Shown: one piece after another, positions 13,919-24,333 of the stretch | Numbering within the stretch: the stretch's first letter is position 1 | How the letters are laid out: every line of letters starts with the position of its first letter | Source of the DNA: Clostridia bacterium | GTDB lineage: Bacteria; Bacillota; Clostridia; Christensenellales; Pumilibacteraceae | Reading direction: 5' to 3' | Assembly (NCBI GenBank): GCA_022791055.1 | Contig: JAAVYI010000032.1 | Coordinates: 1-64,000 of the forward strand | DNA: 64,000 nt | Notes under the pieces: generated by a model | The model's database searches: none | Told to the model about the DNA's origin: nothing | Seen by the model: only the letters and a program-made list of their open reading frames with translations | Made by a program: the position numbers and the translations under genes

Positions 13919-14506
13919 TTATACCTTTTGGAATTTACCGTCTTTCTTGTGTACGTACAGCCCCGCGCCTGTCTTTTTGGCCAACTCGCGCGCGATTTTG
14001 AGCGCCTCTTCCTTGGTTGCCACACGCCGCACCGGTCGCTGCTGCCCGGCGCGCGCGATCACCCACGAACCTTTCGCGCGGTCGTACTTGACCGAATATG
14101 CGGCCGGCGGTTTCTGCTGCGCGTCGTCGAACGAGGCCGTCACCTCGTATTCGTCCTCGTCGTCCTCTTCGACCGCGGCCAGGCGTCCGTCGAACGAATG
14201 CGTTTGCATGGTTTCGGCTTTCTTCGGCACGGCAACCGTTTTGACCGTTTGCGTCTTTTGCGCCTCTTGCCGTTCGGTCTCCGCTTGCGCCTTTTCGGCT
14301 TGCATACGCTCGTTCTGATAGCGCAAGTCGTTGATCTCGCGCGAATACTGCGCGTTGTTCTTCGACAGCTGTTTGTTCTGTTTCTTCAGTCGGTGTCTCG
14401 ACTTGCAAACTGCCGTCAATATAAACAGCAGGATTAAGATGACGGCTGCGGCGGCGATCACCACCCACAACCCGTAATCGTAAAAAAACTGTTGCATCTG
14501 TTCCAT
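13919..14506 (-). CDS. Membrane-anchored coiled-coil protein with DUF2188-like domain
   Basis: 195 residues. One transmembrane segment at residues ~10-32 is followed at once by basic residues (KSRHRLKK), placing the rest in the cytoplasm. Residues ~35-75 form a charged coiled coil rich in Q, E and K, then an acidic linker. The last ~55 residues ([12 protein letters not shown]...[14 protein letters not shown]) have the pattern of DUF2188: repeated aromatic strand, an '[16 protein letters not shown]' helix and a closing HKKDGK. The ATG at 14506 has GGAG ten nt upstream. It heads the metK-recD2 unit; function is unknown. Confidence 0.75.
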
Positions 14507-14534
14507 TTCTATCGGTCTCCGTCTCACAAAATTT

Positions 14535-17202: not shown

Positions 17203-18054
17203 CTACCTCGCTTGTGCCGACAAATGCAGCACAATCGAAATTTTGCCGCCGTCCGCACCGATCAACGTGTCGTTCTCGTCCGATCCGTTCTCGAACGGCC
17301 ATTGCCATTCGAGCGTGAACGACTGGCTGCTTGCGGGCAGTATCACCATACTGTCGAGCCGCAACCGATCGATCGTTTTCCATTCTTCCGTTTGCACAAC
17401 AACGTTGTTCATGCGCAAGCGGAACAGAATCGGAAACGCCGGCACGACGTTCCCCTCGTACTGCGGCTCCAAATAAAACTCGTAGGCAATTTCAAGGTCG
17501 TGCGGGTTGTTGAGAATAAAGCCGTATTCGCCGCTGCTCCCCGGCAACACCGAATCGCCGAATACCGCTATCGTCTCTTGCGCGTCCCAAGCGCCGACGT
17601 CGTCCCGCACCTCGATCACCGGCCGCACATCCGGTTCCGGAGGACCGACGACCACCGGGGTCGGCATACCCGTCAAGGCAATCAGCACGATCGCCGCGAT
17701 CAGCAGCGCCGACAGCGCGCTTAAAACGACGATGCGCGGCACGTTCAACTGCCGCCGCCGAATTCGCCCCAAAAAACGGCCGTGTCCGTCGTACAGCTCG
17801 TCGCCCGTCAATCGGTACGTCGCCGCCCCGGACGTATATATGACCGTGCGGATATTGTTCTCCCCGGTCTCTTCCGATTGAACCGCCGCGATCTCGTTCC
17901 CGAACAAATCGTACAGCCCTGCGTCCGATATGCTGCCGATCCACTTTTCCGACGCATCGCAAAGTACGCGCGCATGTTGCGCACGTTGGAATTTGTCGGT
18001 GTCGGTAAACGCCCGCGCCGTCAATATGGAATTATACTCGAACGTCTCTCTCAT
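17203..18054 (-). CDS. Membrane-anchored TasA/camelysin-like protein
   Basis: 283 residues. Residues 1-~105 are a soluble N-terminal region (with YDLFGNEI and GHGRFLGRIRRR) that should be cytoplasmic; a transmembrane segment at ~110-130 (VVLSALSALLIAAIVLIAL) follows basic residues; the C-terminal ~150 residues should be outside. That part carries TasA-like features: a 'PGSSGEYGFILNN' strand, then 'FTLEWQWPFENG' followed by a 'DTLIGADGG' loop and a final beta strand. It differs from the free fibre subunit by lacking a cleavable N-terminus, so it may anchor the fibre to the membrane. The start at 18054 has only weak AGG; two hairpins lie upstream. Confidence 0.75.
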   Translation of the reverse strand: MRETFEYNSILTARAFTDTDKFQRAQHARVLCDASEKWIGSISDAGLYDLFGNEIAAVQSEETGENNIRTVIYTSGAATYRLTGDELYDGHGRFLGRIRRRQLNVPRIVVLSALSALLIAAIVLIALTGMPTPVVVGPPEPDVRPVIEVRDDVGAWDAQETIAVFGDSVLPGSSGEYGFILNNPHDLEIAYEFYLEPQYEGNVVPAFPILFRLRMNNVVVQTEEWKTIDRLRLDSMVILPASSQSFTLEWQWPFENGSDENDTLIGADGGKISIVLHLSAQAR

Positions 18055-18075
18055 ATTGCCTGACTTTCTTTTTTT

Positions 18076-18128
18076 GACGGATCGTGTACAACACAATCCG
18101 TCGCCGCTCCCCACTGTAAGAGGAGCGG
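18076..18128 (-). ncRNA. Two intercistronic hairpins behind the TasA-like gene
   Basis: GACGGATcGTGT (18076-18087) pairs with ACACaATCCGTC (18091-18102), and CCGCTCC (18104-18110) pairs with GGAGCGG (18122-18128). On the minus-strand transcript neither is followed by a U run (the first is followed by A7), so they are unlikely to be simple terminators. Stable 3' hairpins after a major-subunit gene often protect the upstream message and raise its dose relative to the genes behind it. Confidence 0.5.
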
Positions 18129-19090: not shown

Positions 19091-22000
19091 TCAGGCTGTC
19101 GCCGGATAGTAGACCTTTTGCGCGGACAAAGAGCAGTCTCTGTGGGCGATCCCGTTCAAAACGTCGGCACGGATTCGCTTATTATTCGGCAACCACCCGG
19201 CGGGCGTCACCCATACGCCGTTGACCGTTTGACCGTTCGTCGGCACGGGCTGATCATAGACATTGTTATTCACGTTCGCCGTATCGTTTACATCCAGCCC
19301 GAAAATGCGGAACGTCACGTTTTCGGTGTTTCCCTCGACCGTTCCGATCCCGAGCGGAATAGGCTTTCCCGACCACGCGCTGACGAACCACCAGTTGTGG
19401 ATCAAGTAACTGCCGTAATGCACGTACACGCCGATCTGATTGGCCGCGAAATCGTTTAACAACGAGTTGACCGAAATCGGGAACAGCGCCGCGTGGACGG
19501 TGATCGCCTGTTGCCGCTGCGCCGCCGACGAATAGCCCTTTGTCAGTAACTCCGTCTCGGTGTACGCGCCGAAATGCACGCTGCTGAAGTCCAAGACATT
19601 GATACCGTCCTGGCTGTTTTCGGTGCCGAACGTGCCGGCGCACACTTCGACAAGCGCCCGGTCGGTCTCGGAATTGCCGCGGATCATCGCCGCGCCGTTT
19701 TTGCCGTCGAACGCCCCGCCCTCGATGCGGATCTTTGCGCCGCCCATGACCTTGAGTCCGTAGTGGCTCATCGCGCCGGTCGCAACGGACAGGCCGGGCG
19801 TAACGCCGGCGGAATGCGTCAGGTTGCCGGCGAAATTTCCGTCGTATATGGTGATCGTCGGCAAAACATCCCCTATGTTACTGGACGCCGACACGCTGTT
19901 GCAATATGCGGCCGTGTACGTGCCGTGGTAGATCTCGATACTGCCGCTGCGGGCAAGAACGGCGTGGCCGCCGCCGTAGTTGGCGTAAAACCGCCAGTTG
20001 TCGTGGTTGGTGTTCGCGTTGGTATTGCCTACGCGGTATTCCTTTGTGCCGTGCACGTGTCCGGCGGTAGTGACCGTAATGTCTTGCAAAGTCGAGTTAT
20101 CGTCGCCCAAGACGATTTTGCCGCCCTGCACCTTGACGCCGCCGCCCACGCTGGCGGTAATATCGGCGTATTTCAGGTTGATATTTTCGAACTCGTCGCG
20201 GTTTTCGCCGCTCTGCACGCAAGCGACGGCAAAACTCTTGACCACAAGCCGCCCGTAATTGCTTGCGTTGCCGTAGACCTTATCGGCAACCGCTGCGATC
20301 TCGATATTGTCGTTGTCGTTATACAGGCCGCGGAAGTTGACCGTCAGTTTGCCCGAGGCCTTCAGCCGGCCGCCGACCACGCGAATGCCGTTTGCGTTTT
20401 CGTAGCGCGTGATCGAATCGGCGGCGGCGTCCCACGGAACGTAAATCTCATAGCAGTGCTTACCTGCGCGTATCGCCTCGTTGTCGGCCGTGTTGGCGTC
20501 TTCGATCGAACACGTCGTGCTGCCCGTACCCAGTCGGTTGATAAAACTTGTGACTGTATAGTTGTCGACATTGTTTACGCCGACTTTCTCGTTGCCGTCC
20601 GCATCTTGTCCGGCCTCGAAATCGATGTTGCCGTCGCCCAGATATACGGCCGACGCATTGTAGGCGGCGATCGCCCCGCCGCCGCGGAACGTCAAGTTAC
20701 CGCCGCGCACGGCGACGCCCATTTCCTGCGAACGAATGTTCGAGCGATCCATCAGCACCGCCCCGCCCGCATACTCGGAAGAGTCGAGATACACGCCGAT
20801 CGACGCCGCGCGCATCGCGTCCGTCGCACCCGCCGACACCGGATCGCCTTGCGCGTTCAGCCACTCCGTTTCGGTCGGTATATCGGTCGCTTGGTATTGC
20901 TTGACGCCGCCGATCGTCACGTCGGTATTGTGCAAATTGATTTTAACGGCGCGACTGACCGTGGTGCCGTCCGGCAAAAGCTCGCTCACGCTCGTTTTAT
21001 TGATCGCGTACACGCCGTAGCAATAGCTGTCCGAGTCGAGCGTGATACTGCCGTCGGTCAAAGAGATCTCGCCGCGCGTGCCGAACACGCCGTAGGAATG
21101 GCCGCCGTGCATATTGACGGCGACATTGTCCCCGGTCATACTGCTGGCCGTATCCGAGTCGCTGCGCCCGCGCGCCAGAATGCCGAACGTCGTTTGCGGC
21201 ACGTCGCCGTACAGCGCGGTTTTGCCGACGCCGACGATATTGATGTTTTCCTTGCCGTACTTGTCGAGGCCTTTGCCGATGTCTTTGTTGACCTCGATAT
21301 TGACCGTCTTATTGCCGTTTTGCACCGACCCGATCAGCTCGAGCGCGCCGCCGTTGACGAATACCGCCGCATCGCGGTACTGTCGGTCTGCGGGAAACTC
21401 GCCGCCGTGTTCCGCGCCGTTACCGGCCGAGTCGGCAACGGCGAACGGGTCGTCGGAATGCGAAATGGTGGCATGTTTGGTGATGTTGGCGTCGCGCAGC
21501 GTAACTTCGCCGTCGCTGACCGAAATGACGCTGCCGTTATACGCAGTAGCCGACTGCAATTTGTTGAGCTGCAACTTGCCGCCCGTCGCGCGCGTGCCGT
21601 CGCGGCCGACGCTTAAGATACAAGCGCCCTCGCTGAATTTGGCGGAATTGCTGCGCGTCTCGACGCCCTTCTGTACGGCGGGCAGGTCGTCGGGGTCGAC
21701 GGTAGCAAACTCGCCGGTCGTCGACACGGTCATAACGCCGCCGGTGATATAGATGCACGAGGTGTGCCAGGTGCCGAAATACGAATAGAAACTGCCGGCG
21801 AGCGACGTGCGCGCCGCCCCGGCCGTACTGTTGACGTCTACCGTCAAATTACCGCTTTGCATGGACACGGCGGCGTAGTTCGGCACGCCGGCGGGGTTTC
21901 CCTCGCCCGAATACAAAATGTCTTTATCATACGAAAAGAACATGACTTGCACCAGGTCGGTCAAATCGGTCGGCGTGCCGTCTGCGTTGTATGTACCTGT

Positions 22001-22876
22001 ATACGGGCTGCCGCTGACGACTTTCCCGTTGCCGTCCCGAGCCGCTTTGACGTAGTAGCCGTATGCGCGCATCGCGTCGGCAACGTTGAAATCGGTAAAG
22101 CGGTCGTTTGTCTCGCCGGCGACGGCGACATAGCCGTAGGTGTCGCGTTCGATCAGCGTCTCTGCGCCGCCGCCTTTGTAATCGACGTCGAAATAGATGT
22201 TGCCGGTGTTGCCGTCGCTGCGCACGGCCGGGCGCGGCTGCGCCTTGGCTTGCGGCGTCCACGTGCCGTCGGCATTGACGGTAAACACCTGCCCGACGTC
22301 GATCACGTCGCCGTGCGTGAACGTCTCGACCTGCGACGGCGTAAGCGATTCGGTTTGCGTATTCGCGCACAGCGTAGAGAAATACTCTTTCGGGCGGGGG
22401 CCGCTCTCGAATACGCCGCCGAATACGTTGAGCGTTCCGCCGGTGACGTTCAGCACGCTGCCGATCGGGTTGTACAGACCGCCGCCGCCCGCCGTGTCGA
22501 CGACGTTGAGCGTTTTGCCGGTCGGCACATTCAAAAGGTTGTTGCGGTTGTTACGCTCGATCTCGTTGCCGTTCAAGTCAAGCGTCAGATCGTTCTTGAG
22601 ATCCAGCGCGTCGCCCGTCATAATGATCGGGCCTTTGAGTTTATTCGACAGTTGCACGTAGTCGCAACCGCTTTTGATGGCGTTGATCAGTTCGCTCTGC
22701 GACTCGACCTCGTAGGCTTGCTGCGTGTTGTAGTCGAGCGAGCCGCCGCCGACCTCTGCGACGTATTTTGCGCGCGTGATCAGCAACGACATGGACAGCA
22801 CCAAAAGCGCCACCGCCAAACCGATTGCCGTTACCGCCGAATACAGATGTATGCGATTGTTATCCGCTTTGCGCAA
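19091..22876 (-). CDS. Large SipW-dependent beta-helix surface protein
   Basis: 1261 residues. The N-terminus has a hydrophobic stretch (~13-33) ending 'LLITRAKYVAEVGGG', the same AKYV cleavage context as the TasA-like subunit. The body is a long right-handed beta-helix, with many short turns such as 'LDLNGNEI', 'LNVTGGTLNVFGGVFESG' and 'GGALELIGS', similar to pectate-lyase-like adhesins; asparagine and glycine are abundant. There is no C-terminal transmembrane or sortase motif, so it is probably held by the fibre. The start is a TTG; GGAG lies very close and AGGAG about 13 nt upstream, so the exact start is uncertain by a few codons. No catalytic motif was found. Confidence 0.85.
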   Translation of the reverse strand: MRKADNNRIHLYSAVTAIGLAVALLVLSMSLLITRAKYVAEVGGGSLDYNTQQAYEVESQSELINAIKSGCDYVQLSNKLKGPIIMTGDALDLKNDLTLDLNGNEIERNNRNNLLNVPTGKTLNVVDTAGGGGLYNPIGSVLNVTGGTLNVFGGVFESGPRPKEYFSTLCANTQTESLTPSQVETFTHGDVIDVGQVFTVNADGTWTPQAKAQPRPAVRSDGNTGNIYFDVDYKGGGAETLIERDTYGYVAVAGETNDRFTDFNVADAMRAYGYYVKAARDGNGKVVSGSPYTGTYNADGTPTDLTDLVQVMFFSYDKDILYSGEGNPAGVPNYAAVSMQSGNLTVDVNSTAGAARTSLAGSFYSYFGTWHTSCIYITGGVMTVSTTGEFATVDPDDLPAVQKGVETRSNSAKFSEGACILSVGRDGTRATGGKLQLNKLQSATAYNGSVISVSDGEVTLRDANITKHATISHSDDPFAVADSAGNGAEHGGEFPADRQYRDAAVFVNGGALELIGSVQNGNKTVNIEVNKDIGKGLDKYGKENINIVGVGKTALYGDVPQTTFGILARGRSDSDTASSMTGDNVAVNMHGGHSYGVFGTRGEISLTDGSITLDSDSYCYGVYAINKTSVSELLPDGTTVSRAVKINLHNTDVTIGGVKQYQATDIPTETEWLNAQGDPVSAGATDAMRAASIGVYLDSSEYAGGAVLMDRSNIRSQEMGVAVRGGNLTFRGGGAIAAYNASAVYLGDGNIDFEAGQDADGNEKVGVNNVDNYTVTSFINRLGTGSTTCSIEDANTADNEAIRAGKHCYEIYVPWDAAADSITRYENANGIRVVGGRLKASGKLTVNFRGLYNDNDNIEIAAVADKVYGNASNYGRLVVKSFAVACVQSGENRDEFENINLKYADITASVGGGVKVQGGKIVLGDDNSTLQDITVTTAGHVHGTKEYRVGNTNANTNHDNWRFYANYGGGHAVLARSGSIEIYHGTYTAAYCNSVSASSNIGDVLPTITIYDGNFAGNLTHSAGVTPGLSVATGAMSHYGLKVMGGAKIRIEGGAFDGKNGAAMIRGNSETDRALVEVCAGTFGTENSQDGINVLDFSSVHFGAYTETELLTKGYSSAAQRQQAITVHAALFPISVNSLLNDFAANQIGVYVHYGSYLIHNWWFVSAWSGKPIPLGIGTVEGNTENVTFRIFGLDVNDTANVNNNVYDQPVPTNGQTVNGVWVTPAGWLPNNKRIRADVLNGIAHRDCSLSAQKVYYPATA

Positions 22877-22933: not shown

Positions 22934-23980
22934 TTATTGCTCCTGCGTAAATACCGCGCTGACGCGGCAAGGCATCGAAACGCCCAGACATGTGCCGATT
23001 TCCACGGCGTGATAGTTGTCGTCCGCTTTTTCGGCGATCTCCAACGCCGTCTTTTCGGCGTTCCAGCGGACTTTGAAATCGTCCGTCGGCGTTTGCGGGG
23101 TCTGATCGGCGTATTTCTCGTTGCTCCACTTATAGCCCGCAAATATCTGCGGATCGAGCGCATGTAGCAGAACGGTGCGCAGTTCAAACGATTTCGATTT
23201 GCCCTCTTCGAGTATGTACTCGTTTTTGCTGTCTGCGTCGAGCAGCAGGTTGACGGTAACGCGGTAATAGGCAAACGATTCGGTATCGGTGACGGTAACG
23301 GGGCAAGCGAATTTGCCGGCGATCACGCCGTCCTTGGACTCTAAGTACTGCGCACCGAACGTTTTTTCGACGGCGGCCGCTTGCGTACCCGCTTGCAAGA
23401 CCGCGGTCGACGTAGCCGTATCGATCTTCAGTTCGCGCTCGGTGTCCAGTAATTCCGCATAGTCGTTTTCAATAATCAACTCTTTGCCGCCGTCGGCGAT
23501 CGAAGTGACCTTCGCCAGTGCGCCGGTCGCTATATCGACACAGTACATCGCGCTGGCTTTTTTGGCGTCTTGCAAGCGGACAGGCTCGTCCTCGCGCACA
23601 TCGGTCGGGTCGTAATGCTCCAGCATTTGAAACATGACCCGATCGACGAACGGCGTCGGCAGATAGAATACGAAGCTGTAGCTGTATTTCAAACCGTAGC
23701 GGCCGTTGTTGCGCACGGTCAACGTTGATTCCGACCAGTCGTTCATGCGAATGACGCGCGTATCGCCCTGCACTTGCTGCAAGAACGGCGCATTGATGAA
23801 CGAGCCTTTCCGACGATCGACGTCGATGCTGCACTCGATTTTGGCCACGCTCGAATCGGCCGCGGTCTTACGTTCGGAGACGTATGCGGCGTACGAATAG
23901 ACAAAGAATGTTATGGAGATTGCCAAAAGCAAGCATGAAAAACCGAAGAACACTTTTGCGCTTCTTTTCACCGACTTCAA
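22934..23980 (-). CDS. SipW-dependent secreted protein, first gene of the operon
   Basis: 348 residues, no named family. A hydrophobic stretch near residues 10-32 (VFFGFSCLLLAISITFFVY) is followed by 'SYAAYVSERKTAADSSVAKI', the same pattern as TasA-type signal sequences. The rest is beta-rich with an acidic, polar make-up and a 'YRVTVNLLLDAD' strand late in the protein. I place the start at the TTG (23978-23980), which has AAGGAGG eight nt upstream; the frame continues to 24031 without a ribosome binding site. It lies first behind the poly-G promoter and may be a minor or tip subunit. Confidence 0.72.
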   Translation of the reverse strand: MKSVKRSAKVFFGFSCLLLAISITFFVYSYAAYVSERKTAADSSVAKIECSIDVDRRKGSFINAPFLQQVQGDTRVIRMNDWSESTLTVRNNGRYGLKYSYSFVFYLPTPFVDRVMFQMLEHYDPTDVREDEPVRLQDAKKASAMYCVDIATGALAKVTSIADGGKELIIENDYAELLDTERELKIDTATSTAVLQAGTQAAAVEKTFGAQYLESKDGVIAGKFACPVTVTDTESFAYYRVTVNLLLDADSKNEYILEEGKSKSFELRTVLLHALDPQIFAGYKWSNEKYADQTPQTPTDDFKVRWNAEKTALEIAEKADDNYHAVEIGTCLGVSMPCRVSAVFTQEQ

Positions 23981-24119
23981 CGCAGCAACCTCCTTTCGAA
24001 TTTTGTTTGTCAACACCCCGTCGTCAATCAAAAAACCAAATTTGCACGTACAGCGATATTGCGTGTCGCCGCCACACGATCTTCTTAATAATATATAATT
24101 TTATAGGGGAGTATATATA

Positions 24120-24147
24120 ATTATACCCCCCCCCGTCGAAATGTCAA
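24120..24147 (-). promoter_or_regulatory. SigmaA promoter with poly-G spacer (candidate phase-variable)
   Basis: On the minus strand TTGACA (24142-24147) and TATAAT (24120-24125) are both perfect consensus boxes, separated by 16 nt. Nine of the 16 spacer bases, next to the -10, are consecutive G (read as C9 at 24126-24134 on the plus strand). Slipped-strand changes in the run would set the spacer to 15, 16, 17 or 18 and so change promoter strength. It points at the six-gene surface operon, giving a leader of about 130 nt. Confidence 0.8.
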
Positions 24148-24303: not shown

Positions 24304-24333
24304 TTGACAACCGTCGGGCTGTCGCTTTATAAT
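24304..24333 (+). promoter_or_regulatory. SigmaA promoter for the ECF-proS operon
   Basis: TTGACA (24304-24309), 18 nt, TATAAT (24328-24333): both hexamers perfect. An ATG begins eight nt after the -10, so the predicted transcript starts at or next to it. Confidence 0.88.

Follow-up and report, generated by a model that had tools for sequence, protein, structure and literature searches.

Neisseria, Campylobacter and Helicobacter are well known for their poly-G contingency repertoires. The described systems closest to the locus reported here are two promoters with a poly-G tract between the -35 and -10 hexamers (both as told in the available parts of PMC7864442): that of porA in Neisseria meningitidis, where shortening of the 17-nt spacing abolishes transcription, and that of tp0126 in Treponema pallidum, where transcription is best at 17 nt. 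At the level of a whole genome, Campylobacter jejuni NCTC11168 has 29 poly-G/C runs of at least seven, 23 of them in reading frames and three intergenic (PMC4965091), and C. jejuni is described as having no mismatch repair (PMC4235727). Deep sequencing of meningococci found runs of at least eight to be predominantly variable (PMC5084427), and phase variation in C. difficile has been described as proceeding by DNA inversion (PMC11868660). A search of the open-licence literature on homopolymer or repeat phase variation in Firmicutes and Clostridia (PMC3711429 and PMC11868660 included) brought up no such repertoire, nor did one on Pumilibacter or on TasA/SipW with phase variation.

The window, by which we mean the whole 64-kb stretch of DNA that was analysed, contains a run of nine Gs inside the spacer of a promoter-like sequence. 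We consider it quite probable that this G9 tract, which is among 52 long G runs in its genome, acts as a slipped-strand phase-variation switch, and that a change in the number of Gs would alter the output of the predicted six-gene surface operon downstream. This kind of switch is already known from porA and tp0126; what is new is the scale on which it is found and its place, in the Clostridia. The elements of the promoter are:

24142..24147, minus strand: -35 hexamer TTGACA, 6/6 (sequence)
24126..24141, minus strand: promoter spacer of 16 nt (sequence)
24126..24134, minus strand: G9 tract, predicted slippage switch, abutting the -10 box
24120..24125, minus strand: -10 hexamer TATAAT, 6/6 (sequence)

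Read on the minus strand from 24147 to 24120, this is TTGACATTTCGAC-GGGGGGGGG-TATAAT, exactly the layout given in an earlier, sequence-only reading of the window: TTGACA, a 16-nt spacer with G9 beside the -10 box, and TATAAT, with both hexamers perfect. Allowing up to two mismatches, the layout matches once in the 2.17-Mb genome. The window has 15 G/C runs of length five, none of six to eight and one of nine, the G9 tract. The tract is a homopolymer of at least eight at an expression-controlling position, as judged by consensus match, and as in porA and tp0126 it lies wholly within the -35/-10 interval. Whereas porA is one outer-membrane gene in a Gram-negative pathogen, the locus here is a six-gene operon of a member of the Clostridia whose genome has nine further such promoter-like sites, and tp0126 differs in belonging to a spirochaete and in that the effect of the tract was measured there and is predicted here. 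At 24304-24333 on the plus strand lies a perfect TTGACA-18-TATAAT promoter-like site that carries no run. It points away from the G9 promoter, towards a membrane-protein gene (24434) and a gene that we take to be prolyl-tRNA synthetase-like.

Six co-directional genes lie downstream of the promoter, between 24031 and 15162:

22934..23980, minus strand: gene 1, with an N-terminal hydrophobic segment; the open frame reaches 24031
19091..22876, minus strand: gene 2, 1261 aa, with an N-terminal hydrophobic segment
18159..19004, minus strand: gene 3, 281 aa, with an N-terminal hydrophobic segment; the product called TasA-like in the earlier reading
17203..18114, minus strand: gene 4, 303 aa, a conserved neighbour with a hydrophobic segment
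16604..17383, minus strand: gene 5, a signal peptidase near SipW, matching TIGR02228
15162..16715, minus strand: gene 6, 517 aa, a conserved neighbour

The start of gene 1 is most likely the TTG at 23980, behind AAGGAGG. A seventh gene (13919-14527) follows beyond a gap of 634 nt and has a promoter-like site of its own (14574-14546). To judge by gene order and strand, the promoter would drive all six, as had been proposed, with a single transcript presumably spanning them. The six genes presumably build a surface structure. For gene 5 the profiles favour a signal peptidase close to SipW: its product scores 80.7 bits against TIGR02228 (cut-off 51.85), and against the SipW equivalog profile NF046067 it reaches 78.5 bits, short of the cut-off of 190. 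The label TasA-like found no support. Gene 3 matched no profile in Pfam or NCBIfam, that of TasA/camelysin included, and no PDB sequence, that of TasA included; a fold search gave no match at E ≤ 0.001 among the best 50 hits listed, starting from a model with a mean pLDDT of only 69.7 that was built on five sequences.

The G9 tract is one of 52 distinct G runs of at least eight in its own genome (2.17 Mb in 51 contigs), which together explain all 101 overlapping matches of the genome scan, and the lengths of these runs are inverted relative to what chance would give. There is one run of seven Gs, followed by 11 of eight, 35 of nine, four of ten and two of eleven, whereas an order-4 Markov model fitted to the window predicts about six sevens, 1.25 eights and 0.25 nines per genome; an order-2 model likewise predicts 0.25 runs of nine. 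The run is therefore over-represented relative to base composition. As in C. jejuni, there are many poly-G runs and they are associated with surface-related genes. However, the runs of C. jejuni are mostly in reading frames and that species has no mismatch repair, whereas about one fifth of the runs here are in promoter-like spacers and both MutS and MutL are present. In this genome (L002-L031 and L070-L101), 36 of the 41 runs of at least nine have a C before them and two of the 41 have a C after them; for shorter G runs in the window, the corresponding frequencies are about 56-62% and 42-56%. Two contig ends (L091, 1-140, and the end of L086) bear a short repeat unit that contains GAGAGAGAG together with a G8 or G9 run.

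The inversion was sought in 61 genomes, 37 from the window's family, which is that of the gut bacterium Pumilibacter (the window's own genome included), and 24 from other families of the order. The cut-offs, set post hoc, were 15 or more runs of nine, with nines outnumbering sevens by more than two to one. Nine of the 37 family genomes reach these cut-offs (G000, the window's own, and G002, G005, G014, G019, G023, G026, G030 and G031), as against none of the 24. The inversion is not general within the family: the other 28 genomes fall below the cut-offs, among them the only other genome of the genus compared (G001, 90% complete), with three runs of nine and no match to gene 1. In a class-wide sample of 147 genomes, again including the window's own, the latter has the most runs of nine, followed by G073 (17), G104 (14), G152 (10) and G080 (10). 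One of the nine family genomes, G019, is that of Pumilibacter intestinalis strain CLA-AA-M10, which we take to be a cultured strain; its contig 13 corresponds to NZ_CALPCH010000013.1.

For the position of runs relative to promoters, consensus matches stood for promoters, and a run was counted when it lay between -35-like and -10-like hexamers 15-20 nt apart. At a score of at least 10/12, ten of the 52 runs in the window's genome are in promoter-like spacers on the G strand, compared with one of 52 on the C strand and with 0.3% when nine Gs are placed at random in the same DNA; three further G-strand sites score just 8/12. P. intestinalis has at least 68 runs (21 of eight and 47 of nine, plus longer ones), of which 58 places were sampled from the first 100 of 129 overlapping matches. 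One place, whose flanks repeat those of another, was left out, and of the 57 remaining, nine are in promoter-like spacers, with none on the C strand at 10/12 or more; the scan itself gave ten, of which one, the coding run of gene 2, was excluded. One of the P. intestinalis sites (L161), TTGACAATTTCGC-G9-TATAAT, is nearly the window's promoter. A second case outside the family was considered in G073, a G9-rich genome from another Clostridia family, and rejected: none of its 17 runs scores 10/12 or more, three score 9/12 and one 8/12. Most G073 runs are in an apparent dispersed repeat with a C-G9-T core, scattered through the genome (L192-L208).

The spacings of these sites also differ from the norm. 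Counting one site per -35 box, and taking run-free sites from 299 kb of the window's genome, the 34 run-free sites of at least 11/12 have spacers of 16 nt (1), 17 nt (24), 18 nt (7) and 19 nt (2), and those 24 of 34 agree with the earlier statement that one base gained would give the optimal 17. For the 11 run-bearing sites of at least 10/12, the C-strand one included, the counts are six, two, one and two. The difference has p 0.004 at these unequal thresholds, 0.014 when both are set at 11 and 0.021 at 10. In P. intestinalis, 20 of 27 run-free sites have 17-nt spacers, compared with one of ten run-bearing sites, here including the coding run of gene 2 (p 0.0007, 0.003 and 0.012). Because run-bearing sites are mostly one or two bases off the 17-nt norm, they fit what a switch needs.

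Runs within genes were assessed with a codon-usage score, both flanks being counted as coding at 8 or more, since stop-to-stop open-frame lengths are too coarse in GC-rich DNA. We scanned 30 called genes beside or across runs, and 22 had a Pfam match (8 without). Surface and nutrient-binding genes are thus among those with runs. The matches include BspA-type leucine-rich repeat, Big_2 and Big_3 proteins, solute-binding proteins, a glycosyl-hydrolase-like protein, a SASA esterase, a polysaccharide-biosynthesis protein, ABC transporters, a PmbA/TldD-type peptidase, and AraC-, LacI-, MarR- and histidine-kinase-type regulators; in some genes, those of the LacI and AraC types for example, the run stands at the 3' end. 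Two runs were seen at or just before a stop codon (L118, 3988-3996, and L102, 6198-6206), where a change of length would alter the C-terminal end of the protein or its coupling to the gene that follows.

Where both flanks are coding, each of the 14 nine-G runs from the two species keeps the frame, compared with one of four runs of other lengths. Genes out of frame in the window's genome are L127 (G10), L129 (G11), L133 (G10) and L134 (G8). Gene 2 of P. intestinalis and gene 1 of G005 bring the number of genes broken at a run of 8, 10 or 11 to six, spread over three species. Nine is not always the open length, because L124, presumably a ROK-like protein, is out of frame at a coding run of nine.

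Public protein data contain intact counterparts for three of these genes. A solute-binding gene (L129) is split at G11 into halves that match consecutive parts of SBP_bac_8, although weakly, at 24.1 and 23 bits against a cut-off of 27; the public protein P0042 (566 aa; a cluster of 26 sequences from 11 contigs) covers the full length and agrees with each piece at every residue (312/312 and 250/250). A lipoprotein gene (L133) is out of frame at G10, and in P0164 (17 sequences, 99% identical) the signal peptide is in frame. Gene 2 of P. intestinalis stops just past its G8, where P0002 and P0003 are intact; their identity to it is 124/124 and 123/124 before the run and 391/400 and 396/400 after it. 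At all three genes the intact public proteins read as nine Gs, which points, as far as sequence comparison can, to alleles that differ in run length at three further genes of the repertoire. Because other run lengths break the frames of genes in the family, three of which have intact copies, it is likely that gain or loss of a G turns the operon up or down.

The operon itself was compared at seven loci with a gene-1 homolog, the window included; homologs of gene 1 occur in six of 60 relatives, and a weak match in G015 was left out. Gene order 1-6 is conserved in L102-L105, with gene 6 partial in L105. Four of the seven loci have a run of at least eight, each at a different place and all with the Gs on the coding strand: the promoter G9 in the window, a coding G8 in gene 2 of P. 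intestinalis, a coding G10 with a frame break in gene 1 of G005 (on a short contig), and a G9 at the junction of genes 1 and 2 in G030. No run of at least eight was found around the operon in L103, L105 or L106, the last with gene 1 matched in part. A rough, post hoc estimate gives a chance of 0.002 for runs in four of six such operons, and a somewhat larger one with seven loci. In P. intestinalis, L102, L105 and L106, the promoter-like sites of gene 1 score 9-10/12 and have 17-nt spacers with no run, and in L103 the best site scores just 8/12. Among these loci the promoter run is thus found in the window's species alone. For the proposed switch the comparison cuts both ways: the lack of any run of at least eight in L103, L105 and L106 counts against it, and the presence of runs elsewhere in three relatives' operon suggests that switching this operon is useful. 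Other genes carry runs in both the window's genome and P. intestinalis. For an ABC ATPase (73% identical), both genomes have a run in the promoter, at differing spacer positions, and a large protein (65% identical) has GGG GGG GGG at the same codons across the two genera.

We propose that the tract would slip during replication in this species, that slippage in the G9 would change the -35/-10 distance, and that operon output would change with it. Nine Gs (16 nt) would be a weaker state, ten (17 nt) the strongest and a 15-nt spacing a weak one, so that output would be graded like that of porA; coding members of the repertoire would be switched on and off via the reading frame. Loss of mismatch repair was considered as a cause and rejected for the window's genome, since its MutS and MutL both score over their cut-offs, and because both are present, slippage is possibly slower than in C. 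jejuni. Conversely, G001 (90% complete) and G055 have no MutS or MutL over cut-off, yet contain few runs of nine (3 and 7). In G026, a genome rich in runs of nine, a mutL match (G026:C12:12641-14300) is broken by in-frame stops. Overall, the idea that the tract is a phase switch is strongly strengthened by the run lengths, the promoter enrichment in two species, the spacings off 17 nt, the frame breaks with intact alleles, and the runs elsewhere in relatives' operon, while its transcriptional effect is a prediction from sequence.

Other explanations of the tract have to be weighed against this one. It could be that the tract slips and that output barely depends on its length, perfect hexamers and several -10-like sites making the operon in effect constitutive. 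TATAATTATATATACT offers weaker alternative -10 sites at other spacings, and the effect of tract length could be buffered by weaker -10-like sites nearby, such as the one at 24110; with perfect hexamers, the 16-nt spacing may already be active. However, just one of the 34 strong promoter-like sites that are free of a run has a 16-nt spacing, and three relatives carry runs elsewhere in the same operon, so that we judge a constitutive operon unlikely. The run might instead be a fixed motif, for example a regulator's operator, whose C-G9-A/T form is kept for binding and not for slippage. This would agree with the flanks of runs of nine or more (C before in 36/41, C after in just 2/41) and with the dominance of nine in promoters and genes alike, but the position of the run between -35 and -10 varies, runs are also found inside unrelated coding genes, and lengths of 8, 10 and 11 exist that break frames for which intact alleles are found elsewhere; we regard a fixed motif as unlikely too.

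Finally, errors of sequencing or assembly could lie behind part of the run lengths, and the runs could be ordinary. Illumina errors and contig breaks are documented at poly-G of at least eight in the available part of PMC4235727, for which reason some off-length runs are possibly assembly errors, and four of the five relatives' records are metagenome assemblies. Errors do not, however, account for 35 runs of nine against an expectation of 0.25, or for their placement in promoter spacers; the same pattern is present in the genome of a named strain (P. intestinalis), and one pair of genes from two genera shares the codon position of its run. An artefact is thus very improbable.

Slippage at the G9 tract, the explanation that we prefer, may be part of a wider pattern: Pumilibacteraceae would have a repertoire of about 50 poly-G runs over the promoters and frames of surface and foraging genes, with the same surface operon switched independently, in different species, at the promoter, in gene 1, at the gene 1/2 junction and in gene 2, and with selection acting on having a switch and not on its site. 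We hold this wider view to be plausible, and it could equally prove right or wrong. If true, bet-hedging in a commensal population becomes testable by plain amplicon sequencing in a family of gut Clostridia with a named strain, and metagenome assemblies can record as broken or fixed those surface genes of Pumilibacteraceae that are merely switched. By eye, the P. intestinalis gene 2 alleles P0001, P0002 and P0003 are near-identical over their first several hundred residues and strongly different in the C-terminal part, as if by cassette exchange.
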